A DNA stretch of 64,000 nucleotides from Prevotella sp. MGM1 (GTDB taxonomy: Bacteria; Bacteroidota; Bacteroidia; Bacteroidales; Bacteroidaceae), in the NCBI RefSeq assembly GCF_002933775.1, contig NZ_BEWV01000221.1:1-64000 (forward strand), given 5' to 3'. Shown here in pieces: positions 5,681 to 39,948 of this stretch. The notes under the pieces were generated by a model, which searched no databases, had not been told where the DNA came from, and saw only the letters and a list, made by a program, of their open reading frames with translations. The number at the start of each line of letters is the position of its first letter. Within the stretch, counting starts at the first letter, position 1. A program made the translations under genes and the position numbers.

Positions 5681-5882
5681 TGATATCTTTCATGATAGTG
5701 CGTAAGGTGTTTTGCGGATTCATGGAAGAACGGCTTTTTTATGATGGAGAGCTTTGTCCAGTGTGTTGTATTCCCATGTGTTTCTGCCGGAGACTTGTTC
5801 TTTTCCGTATGTGCGTGATTTTCATTTTATTTTGACGCTTCATGCGCTTTGTCGTTTTGAAAAGAAATTATCGGTGTGCCGG

Positions 5883-5915
5883 TTGTCCTTTATTAGGAAA
5901 AAAATATTATCTTTG
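5883..5915 (+). promoter_or_regulatory. Promoter of the GH28 gene and following cluster
   Basis: TATCTTTG at 5908-5915 is an exact match to TAnnTTTG; a TTG at 5883-5885 lies 22 bases upstream, a little further than usual. The GH28 start codon follows 38 bases downstream. The remaining stretch 5681-5882 holds no gene. Confidence 0.6.
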
Positions 5916-5953
5916 CGGTCAGTAAACTAATCAACAAAACAGTATTAAGGAAA

Positions 5954-7303
5954 ATGAATATCAGAATGATTGTCACGTTGTCGCTCGCAGTGATTTGCAC
6001 GGCATCGTTCGCGAAGAAAAAGAAAGTCGAACTTTTCCCTGACGGTACACCTGTTCCCGAGTGGTTCAGTGACACGTCGAAAGTTGACGTGGAGACGCTC
6101 GGCCGTAAGTATGTCATCACCGACTATGGAGTGAAGAATGACTCTACGATAGTGCAGACGGAGCAGATACAGGCCGTGATAGACAAGGCGGCAGCGGCCG
6201 GTGGCGGCGTGGTGGTGATACCGAAAGGAACATTCCTTTCCGGTTCGGTGTTCTTCAAGCAGGGCACGCACCTCTATGTCGAAGAGGGCGGCACACTGAA
6301 AGGCAGCGACCGCATACGCGACTTCAAACTGCTTACCACCCGCATGGAGGGCCAGACACTCAAGTATTTCGCCGCGTTGGTGAACGCCGACGGTGTGGAC
6401 GGTTTCACGATAGCGGGAAAAGGAACTGTCAACGGTAACGGCCGCAATTATTGGGAGGAGTTCTGGATACGCCGCCAGTATAACCGTCAGTGTACCAACC
6501 TCGAAGCCATGCGCCCCAGGCTGGTATACATATCAAACAGCAAGAACGTCACCGTGCAGGATGTGCGCCTCATCAACAGCCCTTTCTGGACAAACCACTT
6601 ATATAAGAGCGAGTATGTGCGCTATCTCGGCTGCTATATTTATGCGCCCAACAGCGGAGTGACACCGGTAGACCCGAAGCGCGGTGCCCCCAGCTCCGAC
6701 GCGATAGACCTCGACGTGTGCAAGAACGTACTCATACACGGATGCTACATGAGCGTGTGCGATGACGCGGTGGTGCTCAAAGGCGGCAAGGGAACTTGGG
6801 CGGACAAAGATCCGAACAACGGTCCGTGCTCGAACATCATCATCCAGGACTGTACATACGGCAAGGTGCACGGATGCCTCACTCTCGGCAGCGAGAGCCT
6901 GCACGACCGTAATGTAATCCTGCGCCGGTGTACCGTGACTCAGGCAAACCGTGTGCTGTGGCTCAAAATGCGTCCTGACACGCCTCAGCATTATGAGTAC
7001 GTGACGGTGGAAGACCTCACGGGAGACTGCAACAGCTTCCTCGTGGTGCGTCCGTGGACACAGTTCTTCAAGCCCGAACAGCGTGACGACATGCCTCTCT
7101 CCACATGCAACAACATAACATTGCGCAATATAAAGATGGACTGCAAGAACTTCTTCGACGTGGGCAAGTCGGACAAATACCGCCTTACGGATTTCACGTT
7201 CGAGAACTGTGACGTGCAAGACAAGAAGAATGCCTTTGACAAGACTGTGATAGAAAACTGCGTGGTGAAGAACTTGAAGATAAACGGCACAGCCGTCAAA
7301 TAA
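5954..7303 (+). CDS. GH28 polygalacturonase-like glycosidase, secreted
   Basis: GH28 enzymes are inverting right-handed beta-helix hydrolases that cut galacturonan or rhamnogalacturonan. The product has 449 residues with an N-terminal signal peptide (about 1-20). An N-terminal pectate-lyase-like lead-in, DYGVKNDS at 57-64, is typical. The catalytic set is visible in slightly altered form: Asp249 in SSDAID, the pair Asp270/Asp271 in VCDDAV, His306 in KVHGCL and Lys338 in LWLKMR. It probably acts in the periplasm or at the surface on pectin fragments, matching the pectin locus at 48-63 kb. The next gene begins only 19 bases after its stop with no terminator, so it may share a transcript with five genes of quite different function. 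Exact substrate cannot be read from sequence. Confidence 0.9.
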   Translation: MNIRMIVTLSLAVICTASFAKKKKVELFPDGTPVPEWFSDTSKVDVETLGRKYVITDYGVKNDSTIVQTEQIQAVIDKAAAAGGGVVVIPKGTFLSGSVFFKQGTHLYVEEGGTLKGSDRIRDFKLLTTRMEGQTLKYFAALVNADGVDGFTIAGKGTVNGNGRNYWEEFWIRRQYNRQCTNLEAMRPRLVYISNSKNVTVQDVRLINSPFWTNHLYKSEYVRYLGCYIYAPNSGVTPVDPKRGAPSSDAIDLDVCKNVLIHGCYMSVCDDAVVLKGGKGTWADKDPNNGPCSNIIIQDCTYGKVHGCLTLGSESLHDRNVILRRCTVTQANRVLWLKMRPDTPQHYEYVTVEDLTGDCNSFLVVRPWTQFFKPEQRDDMPLSTCNNITLRNIKMDCKNFFDVGKSDKYRLTDFTFENCDVQDKKNAFDKTVIENCVVKNLKINGTAVK

Positions 7304-7322
7304 CGGAAATAAAAAACAGGCC

Positions 7323-8432
7323 ATGGACAACAAGAAGATAACCGTGACATCGCCGCTTCTGCCGGAGTTGGAAAGTTTCAGCGAGTCATTGAAAGAGATT
7401 TGGGAAAGTAAGTGGATAACCAACAACGGCGCTTTCCACAAGCGTCTTGAAAGCGCGTTGTGCGAGTATCTCAAAGTACCCTATGTAAGTCTCTTCACCA
7501 ATGGTACGCTTCCGCTCATTACGGCATTGCAGGCCATGCGGGTCACGGGCGAGGTGATAACCTCTCCTTACAGTTTCGTGGCCACGAGCCATTCTCTTTG
7601 GTGGAACGGTATCAAGCCTGTGTTCGTGGACATAGACCCGGCGACGGGAAATATTGATCCGGAGCGGATAGAGGCCGCCATTTCACCGAAGACAACGGCC
7701 ATAATGCCGGTACATGTGTATGGTACGCCATGCGATACCGATGCCATACAGAGCATAGCCGATAAGTATGGACTTCGTGTCATATACGATGCGGCTCATG
7801 CTTTCGGTGTGGAGAAAGACGGGGTGAGCGTGCTGAACGCCGGCGACATGTCGACGCTCAGCTTTCATGCCACCAAGGTTTTCAATACCATTGAGGGGGG
7901 AGCGCTGGTGGTGAGAGACGCCGAGACAAAAAAACGTATCGATTATCTTAAAAATTTCGGATTTGCCAGTGAGACGGAAGTGGTGGCTCCCGGGATAAAC
8001 AGCAAGATGGACGAGATACGCTCGGCCTACGGATTGCTGAACTTGAAACAGGTGGACAGGGCGATAGCGGCACGCCGGAATGTGGCTTTGCAATACCGTG
8101 AGAGGTTGAAAGACGTTGCCGGCCTAAGGTTTTTCAACGACATGCCAGGCGTAAGGCATAATTATTCGTACTTCCCCGTATTTGTGGACGAGAGCGAATA
8201 CGGCATGTCGCGTGATGAGCTGTATTTCAAAATGCGCGATGCCGGAGTGTTCGGCCGACGGTATTTCTATCCGCTCATAAGCACGTTCTCTACCTATCGC
8301 GGCCTTCCTTCTGCTGCACCGTCGAATCTTCCCGAGGCCCACCGCATGGCCGACAGCGTGATATGCCTGCCGATGCACCATGAGCTGGGCGGTGAGGATG
8401 TGGAAAGAATATTATCACTGATAGAAAGATGA
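7323..8432 (+). CDS. DegT/DnrJ/EryC1 family PLP aminotransferase
   Basis: Members transfer an amino group, usually from glutamate, to a keto group on a nucleotide sugar or cyclitol. The 369-residue product has the expected length. FTNGTLPL near 58 binds the PLP phosphate, Asp156 in YDAAHAFG pairs with the ring nitrogen, and Lys185 in FHATKVFNTIEGG is the internal aldimine lysine. It resembles enzymes that make dTDP-4-amino-4,6-dideoxy sugars, but no dehydratase or other sugar-nucleotide gene is next to it. Its stop codon overlaps the following start in an ATGA, showing coupled translation with the ATP-grasp gene. Likely a step in a surface-glycan or small-molecule pathway; the substrate is unknown. 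Confidence 0.88.
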   Translation: MDNKKITVTSPLLPELESFSESLKEIWESKWITNNGAFHKRLESALCEYLKVPYVSLFTNGTLPLITALQAMRVTGEVITSPYSFVATSHSLWWNGIKPVFVDIDPATGNIDPERIEAAISPKTTAIMPVHVYGTPCDTDAIQSIADKYGLRVIYDAAHAFGVEKDGVSVLNAGDMSTLSFHATKVFNTIEGGALVVRDAETKKRIDYLKNFGFASETEVVAPGINSKMDEIRSAYGLLNLKQVDRAIAARRNVALQYRERLKDVAGLRFFNDMPGVRHNYSYFPVFVDESEYGMSRDELYFKMRDAGVFGRRYFYPLISTFSTYRGLPSAAPSNLPEAHRMADSVICLPMHHELGGEDVERILSLIER

Positions 8433-27852: not shown

Positions 27853-29382
27853 ATGCAGAAGCTTTTAGAATTATATAAGCAATGGGCGGGAGCGGAACCG
27901 GCAAGAGTGGAAAAGCTGCCGGTCGCCGGAAGTAACCGTGACTATTACAGGCTCGCGGCCACCGACGGCTCGACGGTGGTCGGGGTGGTAGGAACGAGCC
28001 GCGACGAGAATCACGCATTCATATATCTGACCAATCATTTTGCCAAGCGCAGGCTTCCTGTTCCGGCGGTATTGGCCGTGAGCGATGATGAACTGCGTTA
28101 TTTGCAGACGGATTTGGGTTCGGTGTCTTTGTTCGATGCCATTGCGGGAGGACGTGCGGCCGGAGGCAGATATACCGTTAAGGAGAAAGAACTGCTCATA
28201 AGGACTATACGTGAGCTTCCTAACTTCCAGGTTCGCGGCGCGCGTGACCTTGATTTCAGTAATTGTTATCCTCAACCGGAGTTTGATGAAGACAGTGTGC
28301 TCTTTGATTTGAATTACTTTAAGTATTGTTTTCTGAAAGCTGCTGATCTGGATTTCCATGAGTTGAAGCTCGAAGCCAACTTCCGGTTGTTTGCCAAGGA
28401 CCTTACCTCCGAGCCGTGCGACAGTTTCCTTTATCGTGATTTTCAGGCACGGAACGTGATGCTTGACGATGCCGGCAATCCGTATTTCATAGACTATCAG
28501 GGCGGCCGCAAGGGACCTTATTACTATGATTTGGCCTCGTTCCTGTGGCAGGCATCAGCCAAATATTCGCATAAACTGCGCCGTGAGCTTGTGGCGGAGT
28601 ACTACCAGTCGCTTAAGAACTATGTAGAGGTACCGTCTGTACGTCATTTTGTCAACAGGCTGAGTCTCTTTGTGCTTTTCCGTACGTTGCAGGTGCTTGG
28701 CGCCTACGGTTTCCGTGGATATTTCGAGCGCAAGAAACATTTTATCGATTCGATACCTCCCGCAATACAAAATCTCAGAGAGTTGCTTGAACTTGACTGT
28801 TTTCCGTATCCTTATATGGTGGACATGTTGCGCAGGCTTACGGAGCTTCCTCAGTTCGCGCGTATCGAACAGCCGGCTTTGAGTCGTGCCGACGGTTACC
28901 GGACGGCGGGAAGCAATGTCTATGAGGCGCATCCACAGGATGGCCCGGCCACGTTTTCAAAGTATGACGGGAAAGGCCCGCTCGTTGTTCGGGTATTCAG
29001 TTTCTCGTTCCGTAACGGCATACCGGAAGACGAGAGCGGCAACGGCGGAGGATATGTGTTTGATTGCCGCGGCACGCATAATCCGGGACGGTATGAGCCT
29101 TACAAGAAGCTCACGGGACTTGACGAGCCGGTCATCCGTTTTCTTGAAGACGACGGGGAGATTCTTGCATTCCTCGACAGTGTATATGAGTTGGCGGACG
29201 CACATGTAGATAGATACATGCAGAGAGGATTTACCGACTTGATGTTCTCTTTCGGATGTACGGGCGGACAGCATCGGAGCGTGTACAGTGCGCAGCACCT
29301 TGCCGAGCATATACATGGCAAGTTCGGTATCGAGGTTCGTATATGTCATCGCGAACAGGACATCTGCTTGACATTGAAATAA
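27853..29382 (+). CDS. AmgK-like sugar kinase fused to RapZ C-terminal domain
   Basis: The 509-residue product joins two domains. Residues 1 to about 330 form an aminoglycoside/choline-kinase-like phosphotransferase: LYRDFQARNVM has catalytic Asp196 and Asn201, and FIDYQGG supplies the metal Asp214. This family includes AmgK, which phosphorylates N-acetylmuramate and N-acetylglucosamine at the anomeric position in peptidoglycan recycling. Residues 375-509 match the C-terminal half of RapZ, with FDCRGTHNP, TGLDEPV and GCTGGQHRS at 468-476; in E. coli RapZ that half binds glucosamine-6-phosphate. The ATPase half of RapZ is absent. A MurU-like nucleotidyltransferase follows 42 bases later, as AmgK and MurU pair in Pseudomonas. 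A feedback-sensing role for the RapZ part is inference. Confidence 0.8.
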   Translation: MQKLLELYKQWAGAEPARVEKLPVAGSNRDYYRLAATDGSTVVGVVGTSRDENHAFIYLTNHFAKRRLPVPAVLAVSDDELRYLQTDLGSVSLFDAIAGGRAAGGRYTVKEKELLIRTIRELPNFQVRGARDLDFSNCYPQPEFDEDSVLFDLNYFKYCFLKAADLDFHELKLEANFRLFAKDLTSEPCDSFLYRDFQARNVMLDDAGNPYFIDYQGGRKGPYYYDLASFLWQASAKYSHKLRRELVAEYYQSLKNYVEVPSVRHFVNRLSLFVLFRTLQVLGAYGFRGYFERKKHFIDSIPPAIQNLRELLELDCFPYPYMVDMLRRLTELPQFARIEQPALSRADGYRTAGSNVYEAHPQDGPATFSKYDGKGPLVVRVFSFSFRNGIPEDESGNGGGYVFDCRGTHNPGRYEPYKKLTGLDEPVIRFLEDDGEILAFLDSVYELADAHVDRYMQRGFTDLMFSFGCTGGQHRSVYSAQHLAEHIHGKFGIEVRICHREQDICLTLK

Positions 29383-29424
29383 GTCGGAGGCTTGAACAAT
29401 GTGATTATAAGAGATAAATATATT

Positions 29425-30195
29425 ATGGAAATGAATGTCAAAACGTCCAAGCAGGCCATGATTTTTGCCGCAGGGCTTGGCACACGGCTGAAACCGCTTA
29501 CCGACACGATGCCCAAAGCGCTTGTACGTGTAGGTGGAAAAACGTTGCTCGAACATGTTGTCGAGCGGTTGAAAGGGGCCGGTTTTGAACATATCGTCGT
29601 CAATGTGCATCATTTTTCCGGCATGATAGTCGATTATCTGCGGCGGAATAATGATTTCGGTATAGACATACGGGTATCCGATGAGACGCCGGCGTTGCTC
29701 GATACCGGCGGTGGTATAAAGCATGCGGCCTCGCTGTTTGACAGCGATATGCCGGTACTCATTCATAATGTTGATATATTCAGTGACATAAATCTGACAG
29801 AACTGTACTGTGCCGGCATGGCGAGTGACGCGACCTTGCTTGTCAGTAGGCGCACGACCTCGCGTTATCTGCTTTTCGATGATGATATGACGCTTGTAGG
29901 ATGGACGAACGTCGAGACAGGAGAGGTGCGCAGCCCTTATGCCGGCCTTGATGTATCAAAGTGCCGGATGTATGCGTTTTCCGGAATACATGTCTTTTCT
30001 CCGCGTCTTTTTTCTCTTATGGACACTTTTCCTGATAAGTTCGGTATAATGGATTTCTATCTGAAAATATGTGATAAGATTAGGATAAGGGGAATGGTGA
30101 AAGACGGTCTTCGGCTGATGGATGTCGGAAAAACGGATATTCTTTCCGATGCGGAGGCTTTCTTATCGCAATGTAATGCCGATGGAAATAATTGA
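29425..30195 (+). CDS. MurU-like sugar-1-phosphate nucleotidyltransferase
   Basis: Transfers a nucleotide to a sugar-1-phosphate. The 256-residue product opens with the signature [19 protein letters not shown] for NTP and metal binding, followed by [11 protein letters not shown] and HNVDIFSDI, in which Asp binds the metal. Its short length without a C-terminal left-handed helix fits the MurU (N-acetylmuramate-1-phosphate uridylyltransferase) type better than GlmU. An upstream in-frame TTG at 29392 is possible, but the ATG at 29425 is more likely. With the kinase before it, it would rebuild UDP-MurNAc from recycled wall sugar. Mannose-1-phosphate or glucose-1-phosphate as substrate cannot be excluded. 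Confidence 0.8.
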
Positions 30196-31933: not shown

Positions 31934-33046
31934 TTAAAAGGTTCGTTTCATTTTGTCTGCATTCCCGTGTGTCCTTGTCCGGATATCTTCCATGAGCCGG
32001 TATGTATCTTGCAGCGTTTCAAATGAAGACAGGCATTTCGATGGTTTTCCTTCGACTAAGTCACAAAATGCTTTCAACTCGTTGTAAAATCCCTGTGTGT
32101 ATATCTGGTTGTTTATTGTTGTCGGAATGAAATTGTTTCTCGACAGCAGGCATGTCGATGTAGGATGATGGCCGAAGACCTTGTCCGCTGGGATGCCGAA
32201 AGGTGTTGCCGGCTTGCGTGTGTATGTCAGTTCTTCCATGTTCCGTATCCGGTAGACACCTTGGCGGGTGTTTATCGTCATTGTTTCCGATGCTTCCGTC
32301 CATGTATATGCTGTCGACAGTTCGAGCGTTCCGGCCGTGTCTCCGTGTCGTAATAAGAGCATCATGGTCTTTGCTCCGTGTGAGTGGCTTACACTGTCGA
32401 TGCCTGTTATCTCCGCTCTGCCGAACAGGAATGTCACGTAGTCGAGCGGATGTATGAATAGGTCTGACAGCATGTCGCCCTCAGGATAAGAGCCTGTGAG
32501 GTATTTCATGTTATAGCTTATCGGCCTTTGGTGTCTGAGCCTCGATTTCAGTATCTGTGTCGCGGGAGCATAGCGTTTCTGCATGCCGGCCATTGCCGTC
32601 GGAGTGCCGTGTAGTATAATCATGTCCTTGAGTCGGCCAAGTTCTTCAGCCGATGAGCACGGAGGTTTTTCGATGAACAGCGACTTGCCGCTTCCGAGTA
32701 TTTTTGCGGCGATGTCGAAATGGGCCGCAGGTGATGCCGACACGAAGACACCGGCAATCTCGTTGTCTTCCAGAATTTCGTCGAGCGATGTGGTTACTTT
32801 GATGCCGGAGAACTTCTCCGCTGCCACTGCGGCTTTGGTTGTCGACCGGCAGCAGATGTACTTCACCGGCACGCGCAGGTGTGCCAGTACCGGGTATAGG
32901 TTGGCAATGCTGTGACTGCCTATTCCCACGAAAGCGTATCGCTTGCGGCATACGTCGCCCAACTGTCGGCGGGTTCGTATGCTCTTATATCTCTGTATTA
33001 TATTTTCCGTAAATGTCATGTTTGCGTGTATGTGGTTTGTTTTCAA
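31934..33046 (-). CDS. Gfo/Idh/MocA family oxidoreductase
   Basis: NAD(P)-dependent dehydrogenases of this family act on sugars, inositols and sugar nucleotides. The 370-residue product has an N-terminal Rossmann fold starting at about residue 37 (YAFVGIGSHSIANLYPVL, an altered GxGxxG), then LFIEKPPCSS, where EKP is the family's conserved catalytic/NAD motif near residue 135, and a C-terminal alpha/beta domain with the substrate His in LFIHPLDYVTFLFG. Its start overlaps the stop of the radical SAM gene by 4 bases (ATGA), so the two are translationally coupled; the 35-residue N-terminal extension before the Rossmann strand is a consequence of that start, and a Met ten codons in is an alternative. 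Substrate unknown. Confidence 0.85.
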   Translation of the reverse strand: MKTNHIHANMTFTENIIQRYKSIRTRRQLGDVCRKRYAFVGIGSHSIANLYPVLAHLRVPVKYICCRSTTKAAVAAEKFSGIKVTTSLDEILEDNEIAGVFVSASPAAHFDIAAKILGSGKSLFIEKPPCSSAEELGRLKDMIILHGTPTAMAGMQKRYAPATQILKSRLRHQRPISYNMKYLTGSYPEGDMLSDLFIHPLDYVTFLFGRAEITGIDSVSHSHGAKTMMLLLRHGDTAGTLELSTAYTWTEASETMTINTRQGVYRIRNMEELTYTRKPATPFGIPADKVFGHHPTSTCLLSRNNFIPTTINNQIYTQGFYNELKAFCDLVEGKPSKCLSSFETLQDTYRLMEDIRTRTHGNADKMKRTF

Positions 33047-34119
33047 GTATTTCGCCTTGCCGTCCTTTTGATGTATTGCCTGTATGTCTCTTTACCGTTT
33101 TCGCTCCAATGATATTCTCCGAAGAAAGCCTCTATGATTTTACGTGGCATCAGTCTTTCAAGATTGCGTAGCAGGATTATGTCGTACTTTCGGTGGAAGT
33201 TTATCCAGCAGCCGTTGCATTTTCGTGAATACCGGCATTGTATTTCGCGTGCTTTCTCGGAATTGAAGATCTCGTCGAGTGTTTTCTCGTGAATATTGCC
33301 CAGCGAGATGTCGAGGTTCTGGCATATAGGCACATTTCCGTCGGAGTGCACCGCGAGCATGCTGCGGATGCTGTGGCACGGCAGCTTGAGGCGTCCGTTT
33401 TTCCATTCGTCGTACAGTGCGATGAAGTCGAAGTTCTCTTCTGTGTTGTGGACGCATTCGGGTATGCTGTCCTTATATCCCTCCGTGCCGGTGTCGAGCA
33501 TGTCAACGGCGGTGTCGAAGAAAGCCATGGTGCCGTATACGCCTATCCTTATGTCCACGCCATAGCGGTTGCTTACTTCTATGACGTGCTCCATGTCCTT
33601 GAAACTGTTCCATGGCGAGAGGCAGAACATGAGCGATACGGGTATGTCGTCTTTCACTTCCTCAACTACCCGGATGACTTTGTCGTATCCGTCGCAGCCT
33701 CTCATCCGTTTATATGCCTTCCTGTCTCCGTCGAGTGAAACATACAGTCGCGCGGGACGATACTTTCTCACGGCCTCTATGGTTTTTCGTGTGGCAAGGC
33801 AATTCGACAGCAGCGTATATTTCGGATGGTGCTCCATAAACCACTCCATGATCTCGTCGGCTTGCGGGTGCAGCACAAACTCGCCGCCTTCGAGACCTAT
33901 GTTAGTGTTCTTTGTGACGCACTTTGCCGTCATCAGCCTCTTTATGTCGGCAAGAGTGAGATGCTCTTGCGGCTTTTTCCATATATTGCAGTGCTTGCAT
34001 GCAGACTGACATCGTGTGGTAGCGTATATCATCAGGGTGTCGAGACGCTTGTGGCCGGGGCGGATGCTGTTGTTGACGTATGTAAATCCGCTGCGCAGAT
34101 AGTCGTTGAGGTTGTACAT
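33043..34119 (-). CDS. Radical SAM / SPASM domain protein
   Basis: The 358-residue product binds a 4Fe-4S cluster through Cys37, Cys41 and Cys44 (TRCQSACKHCNIW, the CxxxCxxC motif) and would cleave S-adenosylmethionine to a radical. GLEGGEF near residue 75 is the SAM-binding GGE motif. The C-terminal region (about 245-320) has a SPASM-like cysteine set: LPCHSIR, VPICQN and RYSRKCNGCWINF, for auxiliary clusters. SPASM proteins include peptide-modifying enzymes, sulfatase maturases and some sugar or lipid modifiers. No short precursor peptide was recognised beside it. It lies 82 bases downstream of the sigma factor fusion and overlaps the oxidoreductase gene, so the three probably form one unit. 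Confidence 0.85.
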   Translation of the reverse strand: MYNLNDYLRSGFTYVNNSIRPGHKRLDTLMIYATTRCQSACKHCNIWKKPQEHLTLADIKRLMTAKCVTKNTNIGLEGGEFVLHPQADEIMEWFMEHHPKYTLLSNCLATRKTIEAVRKYRPARLYVSLDGDRKAYKRMRGCDGYDKVIRVVEEVKDDIPVSLMFCLSPWNSFKDMEHVIEVSNRYGVDIRIGVYGTMAFFDTAVDMLDTGTEGYKDSIPECVHNTEENFDFIALYDEWKNGRLKLPCHSIRSMLAVHSDGNVPICQNLDISLGNIHEKTLDEIFNSEKAREIQCRYSRKCNGCWINFHRKYDIILLRNLERLMPRKIIEAFFGEYHWSENGKETYRQYIKRTARRNT

Positions 34120-34200
34120 GTTTCTTTTGATAATGTTTTGGTTTCTGTGAGTATAGAGACCTCAACCGTCAAAAGACTGCCTGCTGTCATCGTTTTTTTA

Positions 34201-35865
34201 CTACCACGTGAGGCGTATGCCGAACGGAACGGAGAATGAGAACGGGTGTTCCGACCATGTGGTGCGCACTCCGCTGCCCGTGGGTATGTGATAGTTAAGT
34301 GTCGGTTCGATGTAGACCCCGATATTTGGCGTTATGTCGTACTTTATGCCTGCGCCTGCGTTGACCGACCATTGGAACGGAACATTTAGTTTGCGGCTGC
34401 CGGTGCACATGGACATGGTGTCCGTCACCAGCCATTCTTTGCTCCTCCCGCCTATCGGGATATTCACTACCATGCCTGCCGTGCAGTATGCCGACAGTTT
34501 CTTGTAGTCGGCAATGCGGTATGACATGCGCAGCGGTATGCCGATATAATGTATCTTTCTGTCGTTGCGTATGTGGTTTTCGCCTCCCATGAACGATGAA
34601 GAACGCAACAGCGAGTATTGCAGTCCCGACTCGAAAGCTGTACGGCTGTTTATTTTCTTGGTCAGTGTGATACCTATTGTGACTGGCTTCTCGTGTTTTT
34701 CCCGTTCCACGATCTTTCCGCTGTTGCTCTTGGCGATATCTGTAAGCAGGGTGGTGTCGGCCGGTGTGCCGGGATGTTGCTTGGCCAACAGATACTCGTG
34801 AAGTTCTTCCCATGTGCTTATGTTTGCAGGGATGGAAGTGTCTATGTCCGGACTGTTGCCTCCAGTGGAAATCATCTTGTATATGTTATGTGCGAGAGCG
34901 GGGCCGACAGATCCGGCCACTACCATTTCCCATTTGCGTAGCCTTTTCTTTCCTTTGTTGGCTGCCGTGTGGGTGTATTGTCGGCGTTCGGGATGTGAGG
35001 GTGGTATGGCGGGAGCGTTCTGTGCGCTGTCTTTGGGCTCATCCGTCTCGCCTTCTGTGCTTTTTGTGCCTGTGTCAGTATGGGCTTTTGCCTTTGTCCC
35101 TGTATCTTTTTCAGGGTATTTATGCGTGTCGGTTGCGTTTGTATATATGTGTGCTGATGTTTTCCCGTATGTCCCTGTGTCTTGCTGTGTATCCTTCTTC
35201 CGCCCGTCCATATCTTTTATTGTCCTTCCGCCTGTGCTTTCGTTACCCGCCACCTCGGTGTCCTTCTTTGTTTCGAAATATTTATATACAGGGAGCAATA
35301 TCATGGATATGATTATAAGTACCGGAGTCATGCTGTCGGCCAATATTTTTCTTAGCATGTTTTTTGCACGGTACAGTTGCGATGACGACGTGTGCGGCCT
35401 GATACCGAGGGTCTCTGCGATTTCCTTATGGGACAAACCTTCGAGCACAGACATCCGGAATACGTGCCTGTAACCCTCTGGCAGTCTGTCTGTCAGTGAT
35501 ATAAGCTCTTCGGTCGTAATGTCGGTATATGTTTCGCGGCCGCTTTCCGGATCAGTCATGTATTCCTCGTGTGCGTCGGAAAGCGCCACGATATTTTCGC
35601 GCTTTCTGTCGTTAATGTATTTCAGTGTGATATTTCTCGTGATGGTAGTAAGCCACTCGCCGAATCTTTTCGGGTCTCGCAGCCTGTTTACAGACATTAA
35701 CGCAACGACAAAGGCGTCGTGCACAAGGTCGTCCGCTATGTCTGTGTCGTGTCTGAGAATATTGATGCACACGCCTTTCATCTTTTCGGCGTATGCCACG
35801 TACAGTAACCCGAAAGCCTCTGTGTCGCCGTTTTTCGCGCGTTTCACGAGTTTCTCCGTATCCAT
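34201..35865 (-). CDS. ECF sigma factor fused to an outer-membrane beta-barrel
   Basis: The 554-residue product (start Met at 35865; an upstream Met at 35937 is possible) combines parts that belong in different compartments. Residues 1-90 are sigma region 2 (DIADDLVHDAFVVAL, WLTTITRNITLKYI); about 115-175 are sigma region 4 with the helix-turn-helix LEGLSHKEIAETLGIRPHTSSSQL. One membrane helix follows at about 178-196 (MTPVLIIISMILLPVYKYF). Residues 200-395 are a hydrophilic Thr/Lys/Asp-rich linker. Residues 395-554 resemble a small outer-membrane barrel: alternating strands, LHYIG-like IHYIGIPLRMSYR, FQWSVNAGAGIKYDITPNIGVYIEPTLNYH and a C-terminal aromatic (GIRLTW). In related Bacteroidota loci the sigma factor and barrel are usually two genes. 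A signal passing from the outer membrane to transcription is inferred. Confidence 0.8.
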   Translation of the reverse strand: MDTEKLVKRAKNGDTEAFGLLYVAYAEKMKGVCINILRHDTDIADDLVHDAFVVALMSVNRLRDPKRFGEWLTTITRNITLKYINDRKRENIVALSDAHEEYMTDPESGRETYTDITTEELISLTDRLPEGYRHVFRMSVLEGLSHKEIAETLGIRPHTSSSQLYRAKNMLRKILADSMTPVLIIISMILLPVYKYFETKKDTEVAGNESTGGRTIKDMDGRKKDTQQDTGTYGKTSAHIYTNATDTHKYPEKDTGTKAKAHTDTGTKSTEGETDEPKDSAQNAPAIPPSHPERRQYTHTAANKGKKRLRKWEMVVAGSVGPALAHNIYKMISTGGNSPDIDTSIPANISTWEELHEYLLAKQHPGTPADTTLLTDIAKSNSGKIVEREKHEKPVTIGITLTKKINSRTAFESGLQYSLLRSSSFMGGENHIRNDRKIHYIGIPLRMSYRIADYKKLSAYCTAGMVVNIPIGGRSKEWLVTDTMSMCTGSRKLNVPFQWSVNAGAGIKYDITPNIGVYIEPTLNYHIPTGSGVRTTWSEHPFSFSVPFGIRLTW

Positions 35866-35979
35866 ATCTGAATTGTTTTTACGATATGAAGATTTATAAA
35901 TGCGGAAAAGACTGCTTTGCGATTGGTTAAAATACATTAAACGACGACAAGCCTTATATGGTGTAAAACTTTTAAATGT

Positions 35980-39072: not shown

Positions 39073-39948
39073 ATGGCAGACTATATACGATTTGACTGGG
39101 CTATGAAGCGTATGCTCCGCAACAAAGCCAATTTCGGAGTTCTCGAAGGATTGTTGACAACACTGCTCGAAGAAAAGATAACCATTCGGCACATGCTTGA
39201 AAGCGAAAGCAATCAGGAGGAAGAATACGATAAGTATAATCGTGTGGATATGTTGGCCGAAAATTCGAAGGGCGAACTGATATTGGTTGAAGTGCAGAAC
39301 AATAATGGGTTCGCGTATTTTCAACGCATGCTTTTCGGCACGTCTAAGCTTGTGGCTGAATATATCAAGCGCGGAGAGGACTATCAGAATGTGAGAAAGA
39401 TATATAGTGTGAACATTGTTTATTTCTCGCTCGGGCACGGGTCGGACTATGCCTATCACGGAACTACGGAGTTTAGGGGAATGCACGACAATGATATCTT
39501 GCAACTGTCGCCGTTTCAGGCGGAAAAGTTTAAAGTCGATACGGTGAGCAAACTTTTCCCCGAATACTATATATTAAAGGTGAACGACTTTAACAGGATG
39601 GCCAAGACACCGCTCGAAGAATGGATATACTATCTGAATACAGGAAATATTCCTGAAAAGTCTAATGCTTCAGGACTTGATGAGGCAAGGCAACGGCTAT
39701 TGCTTGATCGCATGACAAAAGACGAACTTGCCGCTTATTACAGACACCTTGACAATATCGTTATATTGCGTGACAATATAACAACAGAGCGTGCGGAAGG
39801 TAGAGCCGAGGGAAGAGCGGAAGGGGAAGCCCGGGGGCGTATTAAGGAAAAGTTGGAAATAGCCAGAAAGATGAAAGTTTTGGGTATAGACACGGTGACG
39901 ATTGCCGGAGCGACAGGACTGAATGAAAGTGATATATCCGCATTATAG
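39073..39948 (+). CDS. Rpn/PD-(D/E)XK nuclease family protein
   Basis: Rpn-type proteins are small PD-(D/E)XK DNA endonucleases once mislabelled as transposases. The 291-residue product has the family N-terminus (IRFDWAMKRMLRNKANFGVLEGLL) and an active-site array NRVDMLA with Asp59 and ILVEVQN with Glu73 and Gln75, the E-x-Q variant of the motif. The C-terminus (about 240-291) is a charged helical tail with a repeated AEGR unit, typical of the family and prone to length change. A likely promoter (TTTG at 39016-39019, TATCTTAG at 39040-39047) precedes it, and miaA follows 20 bases later. Cellular role in this group is uncertain: recombination, defence or toxin-like activity are all suggested. 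Confidence 0.85.
   Translation: MADYIRFDWAMKRMLRNKANFGVLEGLLTTLLEEKITIRHMLESESNQEEEYDKYNRVDMLAENSKGELILVEVQNNNGFAYFQRMLFGTSKLVAEYIKRGEDYQNVRKIYSVNIVYFSLGHGSDYAYHGTTEFRGMHDNDILQLSPFQAEKFKVDTVSKLFPEYYILKVNDFNRMAKTPLEEWIYYLNTGNIPEKSNASGLDEARQRLLLDRMTKDELAAYYRHLDNIVILRDNITTERAEGRAEGRAEGEARGRIKEKLEIARKMKVLGIDTVTIAGATGLNESDISAL

Follow-up and report, generated by a model that had tools for sequence, protein, structure and literature searches.

The window, that is, the whole stretch of 64,000 nucleotides analyzed here, encodes a single polypeptide in which an ECF sigma factor is followed by one predicted membrane helix, a disordered tether and an OmpA-like barrel. This protein probably acts as a one-protein envelope switch of the Dma3 type: the barrel would sense a cue, proteolysis would free the sigma domain, and the gene itself and the adjoining operon would be transcribed. 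Translation of 34201-35865 on the minus strand gave 554 residues with one terminal stop, and the plus strand contains stops. According to the ORF list, a start 24 codons upstream of 35865 is also possible; 35865 was preferred because the upstream promoter-like element falls within the extra 24-codon stretch. The initial annotation, which gave no strand, had described a single polypeptide that combines sigma regions 2 and 4 with one membrane helix and a barrel of the outer-membrane type. This observation holds on the minus strand, and it was borne out by Pfam, hydropathy, AlphaFold2 and structure matches (Table 1).

Table 1. Coordinates of the fusion gene, its predicted parts, the promoter-like elements and the adjoining genes in the window.
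Feature	Position	Strand	Basis
Sigma-TM-tether-barrel fusion gene, 554 aa, stop codon included	34201..35865	-	Translation, Pfam, AlphaFold2, 108 distinct homologous sequences
ECF sigma region 2, residues 21-89	35599..35805	-	Pfam Sigma70_r2; sigma-E structure match
ECF sigma region 4, residues 119-170, conserved recognition helix PH[ST]SSSQL	35356..35511	-	Pfam; conservation
Single inner-membrane helix (predicted), about residues 178-196, proline at 192	35278..35334	-	Hydropathy, alignment, model
Disordered tether, residues 205-307, presumably periplasmic	34945..35253	-	pLDDT below 50
OmpA-like eight-stranded barrel, residues 310-554, C-terminal Trp	34204..34938	-	Pfam, AlphaFold2, structure matches; first strand pLDDT only about 66
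Helical loop joining barrel strands 1 and 2 (residues 352-380), conserved; candidate sensor	34726..34812	-	AlphaFold2 and conservation
Promoter-like element 1, GCAGTCTTT-N14-TCT, 24 bases upstream of the fusion ATG	35890..35915	-	Sequence search
Promoter-like element 2, GCAGTCTTT-N14-TCT, between the fusion stop and the radical SAM gene	34155..34180	-	Sequence search
Radical SAM/SPASM protein, 358 aa, predicted target	33043..34119	-	Pfam; similar gene after the fusion in 50 of 105 loci
Gfo/Idh/MocA oxidoreductase, 370 aa, TTG start as listed, predicted same operon	31934..33046	-	Pfam, ORF list

In Pfam, the protein matched Sigma70_r2 at residues 21-89 (9.6e-09) and Sigma70_r4_2 at residues 119-170 (7.7e-14), and its residues 1-93 superposed on region 2 of E. 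coli sigma-E in VIA-align (Z 15.4, 1.5 Å, 91 residues aligned). With regions 2 and 4 both present and solved ECF structures close to it, the fusion belongs to the ECF sigma class. Twenty-two residues of the sigma part are invariant among 75 fusions. Hydropathy analysis revealed one hydrophobic helix after region 4, and the model also predicts one helix, in agreement with the position (178-196) proposed at the outset. In the AlphaFold2 model based on 75 sequences, helix 157-203 (block pLDDT 76-87) comprises the recognition helix of region 4 and, without a break, the membrane helix. The best hydrophobic window of 17 residues begins a median of 2 residues past the end of the sigma model in 108 fusions (range -2 to 7). 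A proline was found within this window in 99 of the 108 fusions, in some of them also at its edge, versus 4 of 17 separate barrel proteins of relatives, in which all four lie at the window edge; the eighteenth frame of the latter set, L054, is a broken fusion and gave no helix window. The nine fusions lacking the proline include three early-branching ones (L155-L157) and L154. Helix-breaking residues favor cleavage by site-2 proteases, and the proline difference between the fusions and the separate barrel proteins may be taken as a lead only. Residues 205-307 had a pLDDT below 50 in the same model. Thus, the disordered tether exists where a linker of 200 residues had been described, but its length is about 100 residues if the first strand is at 312-319.

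OMP_b-brl_2 passed its Pfam cut-off of 27 by only 0.3 bits (27.3 bits, residues 394-518), and OMP_b-brl scored 26.0 bits at residues 392-526, below its cut-off of 28.7; therefore, the barrel is weakly supported by sequence alone. A first AlphaFold2 model from 11 sequences had a mean pLDDT of 64.5, and a second from 75 homologues had a mean pLDDT of 75.9 and a pTM of 0.48, with block values of 94-98 for residues 1-80. The C-terminal part, for which a structure prediction had been suggested, was modeled as eight strands between 312 and 553, i.e. strand 312-319 (pLDDT about 66) and others from 395 to 553 (blocks 76-97). In comparisons with solved structures (VIA-align), the region of about residues 310-554 matched the N-terminal barrel of OprF (Z 13.8, 2.7 Å, 132 aligned), NspA (Z 13.6, 3.1 Å, 149 aligned) and OmpA (Z 13.0, 3.4 Å, 158 aligned). 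The C-terminal aromatic residue noticed initially is Trp554, which is nearly invariant among homologues, being Trp in 11 of 11 rows of a small alignment and in no less than 90% of a larger one with 75 rows. The long loop after strand 1 contains two helices (352-361 and 369-380, block pLDDT 92-96), and loop 352-380 would face the outside, provided that strand 1 is modeled correctly and the chain comes in from the periplasmic side.

This architecture is that of Dma3, which was reportedly first described by Pardue et al. in PNAS in 2024. In the available part of a published account, members of the Dma family consist of an anti-sigma domain, a helix, a disordered tether and a barrel, and Dma3 of Bacteroides thetaiotaomicron (locus bt_2778-2779), described as very little known, has its own N-terminal sigma domain (PMC13088901). 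The window fusion likewise has its own N-terminal sigma domain and no adjoining cognate sigma gene, and it is likened to Dma3 by description, not by sequence. Hence, the layout proposed earlier for a one-protein envelope sensor was confirmed, but as an architecture it had already been published as Dma3 (PMC13088901). According to the same part of that account, the two-gene dma3 locus is upregulated in both dma1 and dma2 mutants, and deletion of dma3 did not revert the vesiculation of either mutant (PMC13088901). It also gives a rise of das2 by a log2 fold change of 4.54 on deletion of dma2 (PMC13088901), which would fit self-activation. The Dma3 locus comprises two genes, whereas the predicted unit of the window consists of the fusion, the radical SAM gene and the Gfo/Idh gene.

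The window's assembly contained one full-length match to the fusion and seven weaker matches of ECF type, of which the nearest ECF-like one lies about 55 kb from the fusion on the same contig. A family scan of 301 genomes detected a near-full-length match in at least 61, two of these with an in-frame stop, and in at least 7 further genomes both halves of the fusion as two matches in one open frame. Of 124 frames that matched both a sigma and a barrel sub-model, two are repeat copies of the window and were set aside; the other 122 include some in which one gene is represented twice, and the one-frame fusions with an assignable start amounted to 108 distinct sequences. The best 80 of 376 relatives were from Prevotella, Prevotellaceae, Bacteroidaceae, Bacteroidales, Alloprevotella, Candidatus Colivivens and Muribaculaceae; L067 was the closest of these 80 (43% identical over the best segment), and none of them was from Bacteroides thetaiotaomicron. 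The initial annotation, in which a search for orthologues with the same domain order was proposed, had also considered that an assembly or frameshift artefact might have fused two genes into the window frame. Nothing was found in favor of this possibility, and the same order was seen in all 108 distinct sequences, each in one frame and some from single-contig genomes such as G016 and G024. It is therefore virtually certain that the fusion is not a frameshift artefact, and a frameshift or chimera was rejected because both halves are joined in one frame across homologues.

Separate adjoining sigma and barrel genes, the split version that had been envisaged as well, were present in many relatives. 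These pairs, which were compared here without being matched to B. thetaiotaomicron genes by name, have the same parts as the fusion in two genes, and their barrels resemble the fusion barrel by sequence. In the separate barrel proteins, the helix lies at about residues 41-64 onward, after a cytosolic segment. The fusions have no cytosolic segment before the helix, and the ECF sigma domain occupies that place. The Dma protein of separate pairs carries a cytosolic anti-sigma domain (PMC13088901), whereas the fusions are without one. Since the fusions leave no room for the cytosolic segment, the fusion does not amount to a sigma factor joined to an entire Dma.

A sigma tree of 76 rows (55 fusions, obtained by thinning the 122 frames by similarity, and 21 others) placed 54 fusions on one side of a branch with an SH-aLRT of 100. 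A preceding tree had 86 rows, ten of which (L002-L006, L008, L152, L019, L054 and L058) were left out of the second; L054 and L058 are fusions each interrupted by a single in-frame stop, and L019 lies at a contig end. Both trees were quick searches. The closest separate sigma genes in the tree adjoin Dma-type barrel genes. L154 (G213:C19) is a distant member of the sigma-barrel fusions; both its sigma domain and its GCAGTATTT-type element resemble those of the separate pairs. It grouped with these pairs in the free tree and possibly represents a second fusion event. However, a second origin is not claimed, the likelihood with all 55 fusions together being higher by 8.47 (p-AU 0.649).

Each of the two promoter-like elements precedes a gene in the fusion region, and both elements, as well as the adjoining operon, had been missed by the initial annotation. 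On the minus strand, GCAGTCTTTT was present at 35906-35915 and 34171-34180 and nowhere else in the window, and two copies were obtained in 0 of 100 shuffles of the window. The pattern GCAGTCTTTN{14,15}TCT occurred three times in the 2.95-Mb assembly; two of these flank the fusion, and the third falls within an ORF of 418 codons that runs on the other strand. By k-mer count, GCAGTCTTT was found in 78 of 90 non-redundant fusion upstream regions, compared with a count of 7 for the best 9-mer in one dinucleotide shuffle. It starts 49-53 bases before the fusion start in 61 of the 78 regions and 64-120 bases before it in the others. A -10-like block (GGAC, TATCTA, TATCTT, CTCCTT or ATCTTC, selected once the alignment had been viewed) starts 20-22 bases past the element in 67 of the 78. 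Furthermore, GCAGTCT was present in the last 150 bases before the fusion at 78 of 90 non-redundant loci versus 0 of 88 in the preceding 150 bases.

A copy of GCAGTCT was also observed within 200 bases past the fusion stop at 69 of 105 loci (57 of 87 non-redundant), and within 60 bases in 66 of the 69; the three that lie over 100 bases from the stop may have arisen by chance. Further downstream, the counts were 0/98 at 400-600 bases, 7/96 at 700-900, 0/92 at 1000-1200 and 4/87 at 1300-1497. The relaxed form GCAGT[CA] was found before the fusion in 86 of 90 cases and after it in 92 of 105, and two loci (L011 and L012) had neither an upstream nor a downstream copy of the element. At many loci nearest to the window protein (e.g. 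L069, L070, L075 and L077), GCAGTCT was absent after the stop and the neighbor is convergent. TGCAGT[CA] was present within 130 bases before the neighbor's own start at 8 of 9 convergent loci; these are variants, none of which is a full GCAGTCTTT on that strand.

Among same-genus genomes, the strict A-tract form was detected in 15 of 16 with a fusion (beside one in 13) versus 2 of 12 without one. The matches in G134 and G006 were not beside a fusion, and the window's genome had no match to this form. The pattern GCAGTCTTTN{12,13}CTC gave 25 matches in 10 fusion genomes, 17 of them flanking a fusion, and 10 matches in 10 genomes for which no full-length fusion was listed. The eight non-flanking matches are therefore at background. 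A search with GCAGTCTTTTCC and one mismatch was discarded as too loose (30 matches in the window's assembly versus 9 in the reversed control). In one genome, a promoter-like element with an A-tract at G012:C84:31114-31155 is distant from the fusion locus, and it could mark a distant target.

Upstream of the separate sigma genes, GCAGTCT was found in 0 of 19 cases. A related TGCA-type element is located 44-56 bases before the start of 9 of 21 separate sigma genes, and the examined stretch of the other 12 contained no convincing element. GCAGTATTT or GCAGTACTT was found upstream of L147-L150, and GCAAC followed by a pyrimidine- or T-rich run was found upstream of five separate sigma genes. The fusion L157 has GCAGTATCC together with a PHSSSSQL helix. 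The recognition helix and the element thus appear to covary only in part.

The Gfo/Idh/MocA gene overlaps the radical SAM gene by 4 bases and is followed by a convergent gene, which we take to be guaA-like. Downstream of the fusion, a radical SAM-like gene was found at a minimum of 50 of 105 loci (at least 38 of 87 non-redundant), a Gfo/Idh-like gene at no fewer than 32 (at least 23), a lipoprotein of about 187 residues at 34 or more (at least 28) and a methyltransferase gene at 25 or more (at least 19), seven of the latter being on the opposite strand; these counts are lower bounds because the flanks are short in many loci, and the cluster names rest on one or few members each, the clusters having been joined by single linkage. 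No Pfam family was found for the two lipoproteins tried, and NCBIfam gave only sub-cut-off matches for the one tried. Other fusion loci contained a CotH/lamin-tail protein or a protein with a sub-cut-off fucosyltransferase match. Surface modification would be the common theme of the output genes. In L070, the CotH kinase/lamin-tail ORF (5734-7746) lies beyond the convergent methyltransferase; similar ORFs are present in L072, L074-L076 and L078, the family having been assigned in L070 only. In L069, L070 and L074-L076, GACTGCA and TGCAGT point away from each other upstream of the methyltransferase gene and may form a bidirectional promoter.

In the Dma3-type switch that we favor, for which sigma release, the signal and promoter use are what we infer, the N-terminal ECF sigma factor would be kept at the inner membrane by the helix after region 4. 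The disordered tether would span the periplasm, and the OmpA-like barrel would reside in the outer membrane with its helical loop probably outside. Either a cue sensed at the barrel or a failure to insert the barrel would expose the tether to a periplasmic protease, and a site-2 (RseP-type) protease would then cut the helix and free the sigma domain, as in the case of IutY of Pseudomonas putida. The free sigma factor would act at the GCAGTCTTT/-10 element before its own gene, which would create a positive feedback, and also at the next operon, which in the window encodes the radical SAM/SPASM protein and the Gfo/Idh oxidoreductase. The strong promoter-like signature predicts self-activation together with a private target operon. 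One RseP-type M50 protease was found in the window's genome; however, M50 proteases were present in 14 of 14 control genomes, and therefore their presence says little.

IutY (ECF243), whose sigma domain is released by Prc and RseP, provides the nearest precedent for the mechanism and resembles the fusion in that a sigma factor and a membrane-bound regulator form one polypeptide (PMC5411451, PMC8999054). In the available portions of these sources, it has a FecR-like periplasmic part and a separate outer-membrane receptor, whereas the barrel of the fusion is in the same chain. ECF48, ECF52 and ECF53 are sigma factors with a membrane-bound C-terminal extension for which activation by proteolysis is expected (PMC8999054). 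On the other hand, they are actinobacterial and have a zinc-finger domain, and the available part of that source mentions no outer-membrane barrel, which the fusion has.

The signal itself may differ from the cue considered above. In a variant with the same output, the barrel would have no ligand and the protein would read outer-membrane assembly, failed insertion leading to cleavage of the tether. The nearly invariant C-terminal Trp fits this variant, as a substrate of barrel assembly would be expected to have such a residue. The helical loop conserved between the first two strands, however, suggests a specific interaction, and the predicted targets are narrow and are not folding factors, and we regard this variant as possible but somewhat unlikely. 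As the initial annotation held, tethered action and proteolytic release of the sigma domain are two live options. The sigma domain could act while tethered, with the signal altering its exposure at the membrane without proteolysis; there is no cytosolic anti-sigma segment by which silencing could be explained, and the single model helix formed by region 4 and the membrane helix could pass on a change. On the other hand, region 4 would lie against the membrane, so that RNA polymerase, when on promoter DNA, would need to dock at the membrane. In addition, IutY, the nearest studied sigma-membrane fusion, depends on RseP (PMC5411451), which by analogy would disfavor action in the tethered state. 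Tethered action is therefore considered rather improbable.

An alternative reading treats the sigma domain as an anchor that has decayed and assigns the promoter-like element to a different sigma factor. It could draw on the seven further ECF-like matches in the window's genome, any of which could use the element. This reading is hard to reconcile with the invariance of the 22 sigma residues and with the strict element that accompanies the fusion across genomes, and it is given very little credence.

The present analysis adds to the Dma3 architecture the breadth of the clade, the absent anti-sigma segment and the promoter-like signature. The absent cytosolic segment and the promoter-like element are additions beyond the open-access literature searched, and an earlier description elsewhere is possible. 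We see about an even chance that this Bacteroidales clade possesses an anti-sigma-free switch in which one chain is sensor, periplasmic cable, membrane lock and initiator, deployed as private sensor-output cassettes. In such cassettes, the shared element would drive essentially only the fusion's own gene and the adjoining genes, and the outputs would differ (radical SAM/oxidoreductase, methyltransferase, glycosyltransferase-like and lipoprotein). If this is true, the signaling path across the Gram-negative envelope would be unusually short, and the element would let the output of each cassette be read from sequence. The predicted promoter, the adjoining targets and the absent anti-sigma segment make the function of Dma3-type proteins directly testable.

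Elsewhere in the window, the plus strand encodes a fusion of an APH-type kinase with a RapZ C-terminal domain (27853-29382), and a nucleotidyltransferase gene (29392-30195, plus strand) follows 9 bases after it. The two presumably resemble the AmgK/MurU pair of cell-wall sugar recycling with an added RapZ domain. A transposase-type protein of the PD-(D/E)XK nuclease family (PF12784) is encoded at 39073-39948 on the plus strand.
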